Assembly (NCBI RefSeq): GCF_900185725.1
Contig: NZ_FYAU01000036.1
Span: forward strand, 310,001-374,000
DNA from: Stappia sp. TSB10P1A
GTDB lineage: Bacteria > Pseudomonadota > Alphaproteobacteria > Rhizobiales > Stappiaceae
Length of the DNA stretch: 64,000 nucleotides
Reading direction: 5' to 3'
A program made the translations under genes and the position numbers. Below, one piece after another: positions 58,439 through 63,923 of this stretch. The notes under the pieces are model-generated. The model saw only the letters and a list, made by a program, of their open reading frames with translations, had not been told where the DNA came from and did not search any database. Numbering within the stretch: the first letter of the stretch is position 1; each line of letters opens with the position of its first letter.

Positions 58439-59928
58439 GCCAGCCCCTCCGCCTTCAGGATGCGCTCGGCCGCGCTCTCCGCCTCCGGCGACAGGCGCAT
58501 CACCTCGCCGAAGGCGCGGGCCGTCTCGGACCCGATCTTCACCGTCGCGTCGAGGCCGATCTTGCCGGCAAGCCCTTCCAGCGGCGAGGCGAAGTCGAGA
58601 TAGTCCATCGGCGTGCGGTCGAGTTGCATCGTGTCGCGCGCCGGGTCGTAGCGGGTCGCCAGCGCCCAGGCGATGTCGTCCCAGTTGCGCGGGTCGATGT
58701 CGGCGTCGACCACCACGATCATCTTGGTATAGCTGAACTGCGGCAGCAGGCCCCACAGGGCGAGCATCACCCGGCGCGCCTGACCGGGATAGCGCTTGTC
58801 GATCGCGATCACCGCGATCCGATAGGAGCAGGCGGCGGGCGGCAGCCACAGGTCCACCACTTCCGGGATCTGCTGGCGGATGACGGGAAGCGCGAGATCG
58901 TTGAACACCTCGCCGATGATCGAGGGCTCGTCCGGCGGCCGGCCGGTCCAGGTGGAGAGGTAGAGCGGATCGCGGCGATGGGTGATCGCGCTCACCCGCA
59001 TCACCGGGAAGGGCTCGACCGAGTTGTAATAGCCGGTGTGATCGCCGAACGGGCCCTCCGGCGCCGTCTCGCCCGGATGCACCCAACCCTCCACCACGAT
59101 CTCGGCGCTCGAGGGAACCAGCATCGGCACGGAGACGGCCGGCGCGAGCGAGGTGCGCGCCCCGCGCAGGACGCCGGAAAAGGCAATCTCCGACACGGTT
59201 TCCGGCAGCGGCAGGGCGGCCGCCAGCAGCGTTGCCGGATCGGCGCCAAGGGCGATGGCGACGGGCATCGGCTCGCCCTGGCGCTGCCAGCTTCGATGAT
59301 GGGCAGCGCCGCCCCGGTGCGGCAGCCAGCGCAGGATCAGGCGGTCCTTTGCCAGCACCTGCGTCCGGTAGATGCCGGCATTGTAGCGCCCGCTGTCACT
59401 CGCCTGCGACCCCGCGTCGCGGGTCAGCACCACCGGCCATGTCATCAACGGACCTGCATCTCCCGGCCAGCAGGTCTGCACCGGCAGGCGCGAAAGGTCG
59501 GGCTCGCTCATCCGCTCTTCCTGCGAGACGCCCTCGCCCACCACCCTGACACGGGCGCGCAGCGCTGCCGCCATCTGCGGCCAGCGCGACAGCGCATCAC
59601 TGATGCCTTGCGGGGGCACCGGCGCACGCAGAGCCGCGAGAAACTCTCCAAGCTCGGCGATATCGGCCGGCTCGATGCCAAGGCCGGCCGCGACGCGGCG
59701 CCGGGTGCCGAAGAGATTGGCGACGAGCGGGATGGCGGACACCGAGCCGTCCGCCGAGACCGGCCGGTCGAATCGCAGGACCGGGCCACCCGCCAGCAGC
59801 ACCTTGCGATGGATCGCGGTGACCTCCTCGACGAGCGACACCGGATGGCCGAGGGTGTGCAACTCGCCGGCCGCGTCGCACCAGCGAAGGAAGCTGCGAA
59901 GGTCCGGAAAGGCTGGCAGACGGCGCAT
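58435..59928 (-). CDS. ubiD: UbiD-family decarboxylase
   Basis: Prenyl-FMN-dependent decarboxylase acting on 4-hydroxy-3-polyprenylbenzoate in ubiquinone synthesis. The 497-residue protein has the UbiD core: FRWCDAAGEL at the start, RTQVLAKDRLILRWLPHRGG, FGDHTGYYNSVEPFPV, and LGxR-type YTKMIVVVDADIDPRNWDDI with a conserved E in the GPFG segment. The ATG at 59928 follows ACAGGAGC. It is the first gene of the leftward arm from the FNR box. That it acts in ubiquinone rather than another aromatic pathway is inferred from its neighbours. Confidence 0.93.
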   Translation of the reverse strand: MRRLPAFPDLRSFLRWCDAAGELHTLGHPVSLVEEVTAIHRKVLLAGGPVLRFDRPVSADGSVSAIPLVANLFGTRRRVAAGLGIEPADIAELGEFLAALRAPVPPQGISDALSRWPQMAAALRARVRVVGEGVSQEERMSEPDLSRLPVQTCWPGDAGPLMTWPVVLTRDAGSQASDSGRYNAGIYRTQVLAKDRLILRWLPHRGGAAHHRSWQRQGEPMPVAIALGADPATLLAAALPLPETVSEIAFSGVLRGARTSLAPAVSVPMLVPSSAEIVVEGWVHPGETAPEGPFGDHTGYYNSVEPFPVMRVSAITHRRDPLYLSTWTGRPPDEPSIIGEVFNDLALPVIRQQIPEVVDLWLPPAACSYRIAVIAIDKRYPGQARRVMLALWGLLPQFSYTKMIVVVDADIDPRNWDDIAWALATRYDPARDTMQLDRTPMDYLDFASPLEGLAGKIGLDATVKIGSETARAFGEVMRLSPEAESAAERILKAEGLA

Positions 59929-59953
59929 GGCGGCTCCTGTTGCAACCGGTGAG

Positions 59954-59959
59954 CCATAG
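59954..59959 (-). promoter_or_regulatory. -10 candidate of ubiD, minus strand
   Basis: CTATGG on the minus strand lies about 31 bp from the centre of the FNR box at 59987.5, putting the predicted start near 59946 and the box at about -41.5, the class II activator position. Confidence 0.55.
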
Positions 59960-59980
59960 CAAAGCCGATCGACCGCGAAG

Positions 59981-59994
59981 TTGATACGGATCAA
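59981..59994. promoter_or_regulatory. Perfect FNR/Anr box in the divergent ubi control region
   Basis: TTGAT-ACGG-ATCAA matches the FNR/Anr/FixK-type consensus with no mismatch. It lies midway between ubiD and ubiT. A TCTATG element at 60015-60020 on the plus strand and CTATGG at 59954-59959 on the minus strand are equidistant, so one box is placed at about -41.5 for both promoters. Confidence 0.88.
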
Positions 59995-60056
59995 CAACGG
60001 CGCCAGGTCGCGCTTCTATGGTGCGGGCAGTCCGCCACGCCTGCCGGGAGCGCCAC

Positions 60057-60611
60057 ATGCCCGAAGCCCTCGCCCCTTTGCCGGAACATCGCGCGATCCC
60101 GCGCATGCCTGCGCTGCTTGCGCTCGGCGTCCGGCTGGCCCCCTATCCTCCCGGCGACATGCTGCTGACGCGGCTCGCCCGCAAGATCCTCGCCCGCAAT
60201 CCGGGGGTTCTCGAGCGCCTCGGGTCCTATCGCCGGTCGCGGTTCGTGCTCACCGCCAGCGATGTGCCCGTCTCCTTCCTGCTCGACCTGACGCGCGATC
60301 TGCCCGCGGTCAGCCTGCACCGCGACCCGCCGGCCGGCGATGCCCGGATCTCCGGCTCGCTTGCGGTGCTGATCGGCCTCGTTCACGGGGTCTGGGACGG
60401 CGACGCCCTGTTCTTCTCGCGCGATCTCACGGTGGAGGGCGACACCTCGGCCGTGCTGGCGCTGCGCAACGCCATCGACGACGCGGAACTCGATCTCGGC
60501 CAGGAACTGGCGACGTTCGCCGGCCCGCTGTCCGGGCTGGCCCGGCGGCTGATCGAGGGAGTCGAGCGGACCACCGGCGTGCCGCTGACGCGGTCGGGAG
60601 CGGTGCGATGA
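60057..60611 (+). CDS. ubiT: Oxygen-independent ubiquinone synthesis accessory protein UbiT
   Basis: SCP2-type lipid-carrier protein needed, with UbiU and UbiV, for ubiquinone made without O2. The 184-residue protein has an N-terminal helical part and an SCP2 domain (LTASDVPVSFLLDLTRDLPAVSL, ISGSLAVLIGLVHGVWDGDALFFSRDLTVEGDT) with the usual C-terminal helix. The ATG at 60057 follows GGGAG. Its stop overlaps the ubiU ATG at 60608. First gene of the rightward arm from the FNR box. Confidence 0.9.
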   Translation: MPEALAPLPEHRAIPRMPALLALGVRLAPYPPGDMLLTRLARKILARNPGVLERLGSYRRSRFVLTASDVPVSFLLDLTRDLPAVSLHRDPPAGDARISGSLAVLIGLVHGVWDGDALFFSRDLTVEGDTSAVLALRNAIDDAELDLGQELATFAGPLSGLARRLIEGVERTTGVPLTRSGAVR

Positions 60612-61588
60612 TGGAGCTCGTCTGCCCGGCCGGGACACCGGCCTCGCTGCGCGCGGCTGTCGATGCCGGCGCCCACGCCATCTATTGCGGCTTCGCCGAC
60701 GACACCAATGCCCGCAACTTTCCCGGCCTCAATTTCTCGCGCCGCGAAATGGCCGAGGGCATCGCCTATGCCCATGCGCGCGGCGCCAAGGTGCTGATCG
60801 CCATCAACACCTTCCCGCGCGCCGGCGAGATGGAGCTGTGGCACCGGGCGGTGAGCGATGCGGCAACGCTCGGCGCCGATGCGGCGATCCTCGCCGATCT
60901 CGGGCTGATCGCCCATGCGGCCGAGCGCCATCCTTCGCTGCGCCGGCATCTCTCGGTGCAGGCGGCGGCCGCCAATCCGGATGTCATCAACTTCTATGCC
61001 AGCGCCTTCGACGTGAAGCGCGTGGTGCTGCCGCGGGTGCTCAGCGTCGAGGAGATCGCCACCATCAATCGCGACATCGACGTGGAGACCGAGGTCTTCG
61101 TGTTCGGCGGGCTCTGCGTCATGGCGGAGGGGCGGTGCTCGCTGTCCTCCTACATCTCCGGCAAGTCGCCGAACATGAACGGCGTCTGCTCGCCGGCAAG
61201 CCACGTGTCCTATGTGGAGGAGGGCGGGGATCTGGCCGCGCGCCTTGGCGGCTACACCATCCACCGCACCCCGGCGCAGGCGCCCGCTCCCTATCCCACC
61301 CTGTGCAAGGGCTGCTTCAAGGTCGGCGCGCGCACCGGCTATGTGTTCGAGGATCCGGCGAGCCTGGACGCCTCGCAGCTCCTGCCCGCCCTGTCCCGCG
61401 CCGGCGTCACCGCCTTGAAGATCGAGGGCCGCCAGCGCTCGCGCGCCTATGTCGCGCAGGTGGTGCGCAACTTCCGCCAGGCGGTCGAGGCGCTCGCCGA
61501 GGGCCGCGAGGTGCCCGTCGGAGCGCTGGCCCGGCTGACCGAGGGACAGGCGGCGACGGCCGGGGCCTACAACAAGATCTGGAGATGA
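60608..61588 (+). CDS. ubiU: Oxygen-independent hydroxylase subunit UbiU (peptidase U32 family)
   Basis: With UbiV it hydroxylates ubiquinone precursors in place of the O2-using flavoenzymes; both bind a 4Fe-4S cluster. The 326-residue protein starts MMELVCPAGTPASLRAAVDAG, then YCGFADDTNARNFPGLNFS and the cluster ligands at C170, C177, C194 and C233 (numbering from 60608), which become 169/176/193/232 from the second ATG at 60611, the numbering of E. coli UbiU, so 60611 may be the true start. The C-terminal KIEGRQRSRAYVAQVVRNFR is also conserved. Confidence 0.93.
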   Translation: MMELVCPAGTPASLRAAVDAGAHAIYCGFADDTNARNFPGLNFSRREMAEGIAYAHARGAKVLIAINTFPRAGEMELWHRAVSDAATLGADAAILADLGLIAHAAERHPSLRRHLSVQAAAANPDVINFYASAFDVKRVVLPRVLSVEEIATINRDIDVETEVFVFGGLCVMAEGRCSLSSYISGKSPNMNGVCSPASHVSYVEEGGDLAARLGGYTIHRTPAQAPAPYPTLCKGCFKVGARTGYVFEDPASLDASQLLPALSRAGVTALKIEGRQRSRAYVAQVVRNFRQAVEALAEGREVPVGALARLTEGQAATAGAYNKIWR

Positions 61589-61592
61589 AGGC

Positions 61593-62519
61593 ATGCAACT
61601 GACCGTCGGCCCGATCCAGGGCTTCTGGGACGCGGGCCTGTGGAGCGCGTTCTACGAGCGTCTCGCGGAAACGCCCGGCATCTCCCGCGTGGTCCTCGGC
61701 GAGCTTGTCTGCTCGAAGCGGCTGCCCTTCTACCAGACGCGGCTGCCGGACGCGGTGGCGCAGTTGCTCGCCGGCGGCAAGGACGTGGCGTTGACCAGCC
61801 TCGCCCTCATCACGCCGCTGAAGCGGGAGCGGCGCATGGCGGCCGAACTCGCCGCGATGGAGCTGGAAGTCGAGGTCAACGACCTCACCATGCTGGCCTA
61901 TCTGCCGGAGGGCGCCCGCTTCTCGGTCGGCCCCTTGGTGAATGTTTACAATGAGGGCACGCTGGCGGTGCTCCAGCGGCGCGGCGCGGTCGGCGTCTGC
62001 CTGCCGCCGGAACTCTCGGCCGCCTCGGTGCAGCGGATCTGCGCCGCCACCGACATGCCCGTCGAGGTCTGGGGCTGGGGGCGCCTGCCGCTCGCCATCT
62101 CCGGACGCTGCTACCATGCCCGCTATCACGACCGGGCCAAGGACCAGTGCCAGTTCGTCTGCGCCGAGGACCCGGACGGGCTGGCCGTCGACACGCTCGA
62201 CGATCAGCAGTTCCTGGCGATCAACGGCTTGCAGACCCTGTCCGGCCAATGCGCCAACATGGCCCACCACCTGCCGTCCCTGCGCCAGGCAGGCGTCGCC
62301 AGTCTGCGCCTGTCGCCGCAGACCACCGGCTTCTTCGAGGTCATCGACCTGTTCGCGGATCTGACGTCGGGCCGGATCGATGCGGAGGAGTTCTGCGCCA
62401 AGGCGCTGCCGCATGCGCCGGGCGGCGCCTTTTGCGACGGCTTTCTCGACGGGCCGACCGGCGTCGCCTGGTCGGGCGCGAGGGGCGAGGTCAGGACGCA
62501 GCCGGCCGGAACGCCTTGA
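61593..62519 (+). CDS. ubiV: Oxygen-independent hydroxylase subunit UbiV (peptidase U32 family)
   Basis: Partner of UbiU, 308 residues. The Fe-S ligands are at C40 (VVLGELVCSKRLPFYQTRLP), C173, C186 and C190 (SGRCYHARYHDRAKDQCQFVC); the spacing of the last three equals that of E. coli UbiV C180/C193/C197. The ATG at 61593 lies 4 bp after the ubiU stop. Its 3' end overlaps the convergent mog gene by 29 bp. Confidence 0.93.
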   Translation: MQLTVGPIQGFWDAGLWSAFYERLAETPGISRVVLGELVCSKRLPFYQTRLPDAVAQLLAGGKDVALTSLALITPLKRERRMAAELAAMELEVEVNDLTMLAYLPEGARFSVGPLVNVYNEGTLAVLQRRGAVGVCLPPELSAASVQRICAATDMPVEVWGWGRLPLAISGRCYHARYHDRAKDQCQFVCAEDPDGLAVDTLDDQQFLAINGLQTLSGQCANMAHHLPSLRQAGVASLRLSPQTTGFFEVIDLFADLTSGRIDAEEFCAKALPHAPGGAFCDGFLDGPTGVAWSGARGEVRTQPAGTP

Positions 62520-63018
62520 GGCGGGCCGGATCGGTGTCGATGCGCGCCGCACCGATCAGATCGAGGCAATAGGGCACGGCGGCGAAGACCGCATTGAGCG
62601 ACGTAGCGATGCTCGCCGGCTTGCCCGGCAGGGTGATGATGAGGCTTGCCCCCCGCACCGCCGCCTCCTGGCGCGACAGGATCGCCGTCGGCACCTCGGC
62701 AAGGTTCGCCCGCCGCATCGCCTCGCCGAAGCCGGGCAGAAAGCGCGTCGCGACCTGCGCCAGAGCCTCGGGCGTCTCGTCGCGCGGCGCCGGTCCGGTG
62801 CCGCCGGTGACCAGCAGCAGGTCGCAGCCCTCCACATCGCACAGGTGACGCATCGCACCGGCGACGCTGTCGGCGCCGTCGGGAACGATGCGGGTGACGA
62901 ACTCCCAGTCGCCGACAAGGTGCTGCCGCAGCCAGTCGAGCGCCGCCGGCCCGCTGCGATCTTCATAGATGCCGGCGCTGGCGCGGTCCGAAACGGTGAG
63001 AATGCCGATGCGTGCCAT
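62491..63018 (-). CDS. mog: Molybdopterin adenylyltransferase Mog/MoaB
   Basis: Adenylates molybdopterin before molybdenum insertion. The 175-residue protein starts MARIGILTVSDRASAGIYEDRSG and has the family motif LLLVTGGTGPAPRDETPEAL near residue 75 and a C-terminal ITLPGKPASIATSLNAV, which is the conserved LPGxP region. It lies downstream of norF on the same strand. It points to molybdoenzyme use, such as nitrate reductase, near this locus. Confidence 0.93.
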   Translation of the reverse strand: MARIGILTVSDRASAGIYEDRSGPAALDWLRQHLVGDWEFVTRIVPDGADSVAGAMRHLCDVEGCDLLLVTGGTGPAPRDETPEALAQVATRFLPGFGEAMRRANLAEVPTAILSRQEAAVRGASLIITLPGKPASIATSLNAVFAAVPYCLDLIGAARIDTDPARLKAFRPAAS

Positions 63019-63090
63019 TTGGTGTGACCTGCCTGTCATGGGACCTTGCTTGAGGAGAATGCCGTCAAGGACGGGTGCGGGAAAGGGCGA

Positions 63091-63350: not shown

Positions 63351-63923
63351 TCACCCGATCAGGTAGACGACGGGGAAGACCAGGATCCACACCAGGTCGA
63401 CCATGTGCCAGAAGGCGGTGCCGGTCTCCAGGTTCTCCAGGCTGTTGCGCCAGGCGACCACGGCCAGCAGCACGATACCGGCGACCACATGCAGCGCATG
63501 GAAGCCGGTGACGAGATAGTAGAGTTCGAAGAAGGTGCCGCTGTCCGGGCCGTGGCCGGCCTTGAGCTTGGCGGCGTATTCGATCCCCTTCACCACGAGA
63601 AACGCCGCCCCGAGCGCCATTGCCGCGACGAGTTGCGGGCGGCCCGAGCCGTTGCTCCTGCGCCGCTGCACGGCCAGTGCCGCGCACCAGCCGCTGGCGA
63701 TCAGCACCAAGGTGTTGAGCCCGCCGAGCCGCACGTCCAGCACGGCCTGTCCCGCGGCGAACTCCACCGGGTTCAGCATCCGCGCCACCGAGAACCCGAC
63801 CAGCAGGGCGCCGAAGACGGCGAGTTCCCCGAGGATCAGGATCCACATCATCGGATTGCCGGGCAGTCCGTCGAGCGGCCCCCATCCCTCGTCGGGCGTC
63901 TCGCCCGCAACGTCGTCATGCAT
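63351..63923 (-). CDS. norE: NorE-like cytochrome c oxidase subunit III family protein
   Basis: A 190-residue membrane protein with five helices and the subunit III-type segments MMWILILGELAVFGALLVGF, LVVKGIEYAAKLKAGHGPD, GTFFELYYLVTGFHALHVVAGIVLL and FWHMVDLVWILVFPVVYL, typical of NorE. NorE/NorF promote assembly or activity of the cNOR nitric oxide reductase. The ATG at 63923 follows AGGAGG. Other nor genes would lie beyond the right edge. Aerobic oxidase subunit III is the alternative, but length favours NorE. Confidence 0.85.
   Translation of the reverse strand: MHDDVAGETPDEGWGPLDGLPGNPMMWILILGELAVFGALLVGFSVARMLNPVEFAAGQAVLDVRLGGLNTLVLIASGWCAALAVQRRRSNGSGRPQLVAAMALGAAFLVVKGIEYAAKLKAGHGPDSGTFFELYYLVTGFHALHVVAGIVLLAVVAWRNSLENLETGTAFWHMVDLVWILVFPVVYLIG

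Follow-up and report, generated by a model that had tools for sequence, protein, structure and literature searches.

A single FNR/FixK-type box with mirror spacing to two predicted divergent promoters of the ubiDX and ubiTUV operons in Stappia

In Stappia sp. TSB10P1A, the operons ubiD-ubiX and ubiT-ubiU-ubiV are divergently oriented, and the 128-bp gap between ubiD and ubiT contains one palindrome, the box TTGATACGGATCAA. We consider it likely that two divergent promoters share this box as their only class II activator site, its reader most likely being a FixK2-like protein. The assignment of one class II site to the two operons is well supported. The window, i.e. the whole stretch of 64 kb that was analysed, contains the following features, given with window positions.

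59981-59994, no strand: FNR/FixK-type box TTGATACGGATCAA, common to both promoters (direct sequence match, counts in the genome and the window, boxes in relatives)
60017-60022, plus strand: TATGGT, predicted -10 element for ubiTUV at a distance of 22 bp from the box, with a predicted +1 at 60029
59958-59953, minus strand: TATGGC, predicted -10 element for ubiDX at a distance of 22 bp from the box, with a predicted +1 at 59946
59928-58435, minus strand: ubiD, prenyl-4-hydroxybenzoate decarboxylase (UbiD family), subfamily cut-off passed
58438-57863, minus strand: ubiX, flavin prenyltransferase (UbiX family), subfamily cut-off passed
60057-60611, plus strand: ubiT, SCP2-domain accessory factor, NCBIfam equivalog NF047962 over cut-off
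60608-61588, plus strand: ubiU, anaerobic hydroxylation, U32 family, NCBIfam equivalog NF047963 over cut-off
61593-62519, plus strand: ubiV, anaerobic hydroxylation, U32 family, NCBIfam equivalog NF047965 over cut-off

The box and the two predicted promoters

The box was found where an earlier note on this DNA had placed it, i.e. at 59981-59994 between ubiD-ubiX and ubiT-ubiU-ubiV, and the genes were confirmed by profile models. The genes ubiT, ubiU and ubiV, which together mark the O2-independent ubiquinone pathway, are all present. UbiD stays under the cut-off of the E. coli-type equivalog (520 vs 788 bits). A molybdopterin adenylyltransferase gene (62491-63039, minus strand; NCBIfam equivalog over cut-off) lies between ubiV and nor-type genes.

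The box is a palindrome of the form TTGAT-N4-ATCAA, the type found at class II CRP/FNR-activated promoters, and both of its half-sites are TTGAT. It is the sole match to TTGA-N6-TCAA in the window; when one mismatch to TTGAT-N4-ATCAA was allowed, three window matches were found vs 0.35 in shuffles. The perfect motif occurs at two places in the 5.13-Mb genome, i.e. at the box and at L001, and the values expected from the base composition of the window are 0.24 per genome and 0.003 per window. When L001 was examined as a potential further target, it proved to lie within an open reading frame of 571 aa. The degenerate motif TTGAY-N4-RTCAA has 20 places in the genome. Among the 16 that were read, a TA at 22 bp on both sides is present only at the window box, while five have it on one side (L095, L098, L099, L102, L105) and ten on neither.

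The distance from the edge of the box to the predicted -10 element is exactly 22 bp on each strand. The +1 positions 60029 and 59946 are inferred, because they were derived from the usual convention that the -10 element spans -12 to -7. Relative to these predicted (unmapped) starts, the centre of the box is at -41.5 for both ubiT-ubiU-ubiV and ubiD-ubiX, overlapping the -35 region as in class II promoters, and this placement is conserved in relatives (see below). A lone intergenic box flanked by a predicted -10 element on either side is the layout of a bidirectional single site. The earlier note had proposed a single dimer at about -41.5 for both promoters, in agreement with the exact 22/22 bp spacing to the predicted elements. 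It had also named the near-identical -10 candidates CTATGG and TCTATG about 30 bp away; elements were indeed found on both sides, but their best frame is shifted by one base on the left and by two bases on the right.

The predicted leaders have lengths of 28 nt on the ubiT side and 18 nt on the ubiD side, and the purine-rich tracts CGGGAG and AGGAG precede the respective start codons. A UbiT start at 60018 was rejected, being upstream of the predicted transcription start at 60029. A sigma-70 scan of 59900-60100 found no -35/-10 promoter, and a promoter of this kind was set aside; activator-dependent promoters are expected to give no such match.

Conservation of the mirror spacing in relatives

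Loci for comparison were collected by a UbiU search of 297 genomes of the order and from the best 80 matches listed in named species (mostly Rhodobacterales). After the removal of four repeated loci, 157 loci with a region upstream of ubiT were left, 152 of them with distinct flanks. A box was called, blind to the -10 elements, at 9/10 or more agreement with the degenerate consensus TTGAY-N4-RTCAA, and a locus was counted as divergent when a divergent ubiD was present within 1 kb. A box was called in 113 of the 152 distinct ubiT loci, and 85 of the 152 have both a box and a divergent ubiD.

Conservation of the box and its spacing in relatives had been named in the earlier note as a way to check its reading, and both are indeed kept in many of them. 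Of the 85 divergent box loci, 66 have a TA at offset 22 on the right and 62 have one on the left; in 60 loci both are present. For any other offset from 10 to 35 the value is at most 4 of 85 on either side, and the background of TA in these flanks is 1.26%. Since the spacers of the 60 symmetric loci have mean identities of only 31% (right) and 37% (left), the distance has been kept but the letters have not. When one representative was taken per group under 60% flank identity, both sides were kept in 49 of 71. The left hexamer, TATGGC in the window and TAAGGC in L114, L115 and L116, is the weaker of the two. Deviations from the layout were also seen: in 25 of the 85 divergent box loci the TA at 22 is missing from one or both sides, and another 16 divergent loci do not reach the 9/10 threshold for a box. 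A contig end cuts the ubiT region in at least three (L041, L044, L070) of the 39 distinct loci in which no box was called.

Of the 28 box loci without a divergent ubiD, 16 retain the TA at 22 on the right; on the left it was seen in 3 of the 27 loci that could be scored, the left flank of L131 being absent. The three exceptions with a left element are L107, L108 and L143, and the ubiD of L143 may be cut off, because the contig of this locus starts only 742 bp ahead of ubiU. A natural control exists in the same family, i.e. locus L117 of genome G116, which has kept ubiTUV, the box and TATGGT at 22 bp; its left hexamer is TTGCTG, and the search found no UbiD match in this genome.

The left element thus tracks divergent ubiD (62/85 divergent vs 3/27 non-divergent box loci) and is missing from most loci in which ubiD is not divergent. 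This argues against the alternative that activation from the box is limited to ubiTUV, with an incidental or weak TATGGC on the left and another promoter for ubiDX. We regard this alternative as improbable, even though agreement with TATAAT is poorer for the left hexamer (3/6 for TATGGC vs 4/6 for TATGGT), and a site at ubiD in Rhodobacter capsulatus was reported together with no differential ubiD expression by RNA-seq (PMC4634722). In R. sphaeroides, the ubiD operon RSP0467-8 is marked as activated from the FnrL site that it shares with the ubiTUV-type operon (PMC2908626), which also speaks against a site that serves one side.

The symmetric layout is unevenly distributed. In the tree set, it is found in 55 of the 68 divergent loci from the named, mostly Rhodobacterales, species vs 5 of 32 from the order-wide genomes, and three of these five belong to the genus of the window. 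The tree was calculated from 149 UbiU proteins; from the 152 loci, L044, L070 and L110, which are cut by contig ends, were left out. The symmetric layout is mostly confined to one large clade, with 16 label changes, and the genus of the window groups with Rhodobacterales and two Hoeflea MAGs in one large clade, so that the locus may have been inherited from a common ancestor or transferred. We draw no dated origin from this tree, because the method was quick and many forks are open.

Other motifs recur upstream of ubiT elsewhere in the order. Members of several other families (L029, L032, L034-L037, L062, L063, L065, L066, L068) have a different palindrome-like motif, mostly TTGAGCTAGATCAA or TTGAGCTATGACAA, and in L062, L063, L065 and L066 TAAGCT is located at 22 bp from it. 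In family f44 (L046, L049, L051-L053), ubiT is preceded by ATGAT-N4-ATCAA, from which GAGAAT or GACAAT is 22 bp away, and the fetched stretch contains no divergent ubiD.

The probable regulator

The earlier note had proposed that an FNR/Anr-type protein switches both operons. One symmetric and conserved site and the co-occurrence of UbiD with UbiU (see below) are in line with a common switch, but an FNR with N-terminal cysteines was not found, and the best candidate is FixK2-like. Seven proteins in the genome of the window match HTH_Crp_2 over cut-off, three of which (L007-L009) look GntR-like by eye. None of the other four reaches the cut-off of the FnrL and Fnr models; the FnrL model gave no match over cut-off in 14 control genomes either and has no positive control. 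The translations of these four proteins contain no FNR-type N-terminal cysteine motif, i.e. no regulator with the N-terminal cysteines of an iron-sulfur FNR was detected in this genome.

The best solved-structure match of one of the four, L004, is FixK2 (4i2o), and the recognition helices are near-identical (DYLGLTIETVSRV in L004 vs DYLGLTLETVSRA in FixK2). Its gene adjoins genes for a FixL-like PAS kinase, which has solved-structure matches to FixL, and for a FixJ-like regulator, as well as hemN-like and ccoNOP genes; this is the arrangement of a FixLJ-FixK2 cascade, with FixL and FixJ beside the FixK2-like protein. The FixK2-like and the FixJ-like protein are both below the NCBIfam equivalog cut-offs, the latter with 212.7 bits in the FixJ model (cut-off 255). 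A FixK-like protein is present in 11 of 11 searched genomes of the genus, and the initial part of its predicted sequence is free of cysteine in all of them; two genomes of the genus have a cysteine codon upstream of its likely start. Judged from these sequences, the activator in Stappia is probably FixK2-like and under the control of FixLJ. We infer that the window site is of the FixK type, because no cysteine FNR was found, L004 is FixK2-like, and the nor-type genes have a box with other half-sites.

These nor-type genes are the basis of a competing assignment, in which the protein L003 reads the site and the signal is nitric oxide, not oxygen. Judged by eye, L003 looks NnrR/Dnr-like. The locus lies beside nor-type genes, with a norE-like gene in the window and NorB-, NorQ- and NorD-like genes past its end. 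However, NnrR prefers TTGCG half-sites, and both halves of the window box are TTGAT. A different box, TTGCGCTGGAGCAA, with the halves TTGCG and TTGCT, is located upstream of the nor-type genes, 22 bp before TAGCTC, and this difference led us to set an NnrR/Dnr site aside; because the nor-type genes have their own box, the half-sites may be what distinguishes the targets of the two regulators. The recognition helix of L003 contains His where FixK2 and L004 have Glu (TTLHTVSR vs TLETVSR and TIETVSR). In R. sphaeroides, RSP0465 and RSP0466 were computationally assigned to a DNR regulon, but this species is without DNR and uses FnrL (PMC2908626). On balance, reading by L003 is quite unlikely.

The perfect motif TTGCG-N4-CGCAA has five places in the genome vs two for the reversed control, which is no clear enrichment. 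The TTGCGCTGGAGCAA box itself, with TAGCTC exactly 22 bp further on (L119:12016-12057, just past the end of the window), is perhaps an NnrR class II promoter, and the norE-like gene at 63351-63923 of the window is near it.

A chance match without function, to which the position of the second perfect genome box within an open reading frame could point, was set aside as extremely improbable, given the rarity of the motif (0.003 perfect boxes expected per window) and the conservation of the box and both spacings across diverged spacers.

Anaerobic ubiquinone synthesis and comparison with known systems

For a FixK2-like reader of a common class II site, the following sequence of events is proposed. 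When oxygen falls, a dimer of the CRP/FNR family would bind the box. Being at -41.5 either way, it could bring RNA polymerase to ubiT-ubiU-ubiV on the right or to ubiD-ubiX on the left. The cell would thus make the decarboxylase and the proteins of oxygen-independent hydroxylation together. The dimer would most likely be the FixK2-like protein encoded beside the FixL- and FixJ-like genes in Stappia, and FnrL in R. sphaeroides. In this scheme, FixK as the reader, the positions at which transcription starts and the response to oxygen are all predictions for Stappia. It is conceivable, but on the unlikely side, that the mirror geometry itself was selected: the dimer would present identical class II surfaces to two RNA polymerases, and a single binding event would lead to transcription of the operons in turn or at a constant ratio, matching UbiD-UbiX to UbiU-UbiV. 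The locus offers a small natural setting in which to ask whether a single activator dimer can serve two polymerases at once.

The co-occurrence of the two enzyme groups was estimated for the 297 genomes of the order, with thresholds of E below 1e-100 for UbiD and below 1e-40 for UbiU. A high-scoring UbiD is encoded in 55 of the 297 genomes, and all 55 also encode UbiU. None of the 219 genomes without UbiU has a high-scoring UbiD in this quick search, in which misses are possible, and 23 genomes have UbiU without a high-scoring UbiD. The association has a Fisher p of about 1e-41, uncorrected for relatedness. Because high-scoring UbiD occurs only alongside UbiU, the results suggest an anaerobic role of the UbiD-UbiX enzyme pair in this order. 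The shared site suggests that UbiD-UbiX in these bacteria is part of the oxygen-free ubiquinone pathway and not a constitutive pair. In R. capsulatus, ubiDX and ubiUV deletion strains grow aerobically, not anaerobically, and the aerobic decarboxylation is performed by UbiN (PMC10626278). Joint switching of decarboxylation and hydroxylation fits both the co-occurrence and these deletions. The co-occurrence is also in line with Hyphomicrobium, in which ubiXDTUV is co-regulated with denitrification (PMC12423496).

The closest known case is R. sphaeroides, in which, like in Stappia, one site (TTGATgtagGTCAA in the table of PMC2908626) lies between ubiTUV-type and ubiD operons. This site, between RSP0466-4 and RSP0467-8, is bound by FnrL, and both operons are marked as activated (PMC2908626); both are also listed as CrpK targets (PMC4263372). 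The regulator differs, being FnrL, with CrpK also listed, in R. sphaeroides and probably FixK2-like in Stappia. If this is confirmed, the site has been kept across lineages while its reader has changed. The main text of PMC2908626 does not contain "41.5", and no discussion of a symmetric placement at -41.5 was found in this paper. FNR motifs upstream of ubiTUV have been described across Pseudomonadota (PMC11707229), the main text of that paper containing no ubiD and, as far as found, no mirror spacing. The ubiT box of Sphingopyxis is at -40.5 from the transcription start (PMC7713065).

Single sites for two divergent promoters are known from other systems. In Dinoroseobacter shibae, FnrL/Dnr sites at nirS/nosR2 and hemA3/dnrE resemble that of Stappia in that one site near -41.5 serves two divergent promoters, but the distances are unequal, 39.5 and 41.5, and the genes are those of denitrification and heme synthesis (PMC5398030). 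For nirS/nosR2, lacZ fusions were made in both directions and the box was mutated in the nirS direction; both genes are controlled mainly by DnrD (PMC5398030). In E. coli, Fnr likewise activates anaerobic ubiquinone genes from the divergent ubiT/ubiUV intergenic region; in contrast to Stappia, two separate Fnr sites, F1 and F2, act independently, and the region has no ubiD (PMC10470549). A model system with a single site and divergent promoters (El-Robh and Busby 2002, as cited in PMC3105977) also has one dimer for two promoters, although the dimer is CRP and not FNR/FixK, and 11 natural single-site cases in E. coli have been listed (PMC3105977).

We found no description of an equal 22/22 spacing in the open-licence literature, which was covered in part. 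The mechanism is thus of a known kind, i.e. a single class II CRP/FNR-type site with two divergent promoters, and the corresponding site has already been seen in R. sphaeroides. As far as we could find, three aspects are new: the exact mirror geometry, which is conserved and in some loci lost on one side; FixK as the likely reader in Stappia; and, in the sampled genomes of the order, the occurrence of UbiD strictly together with UbiU.
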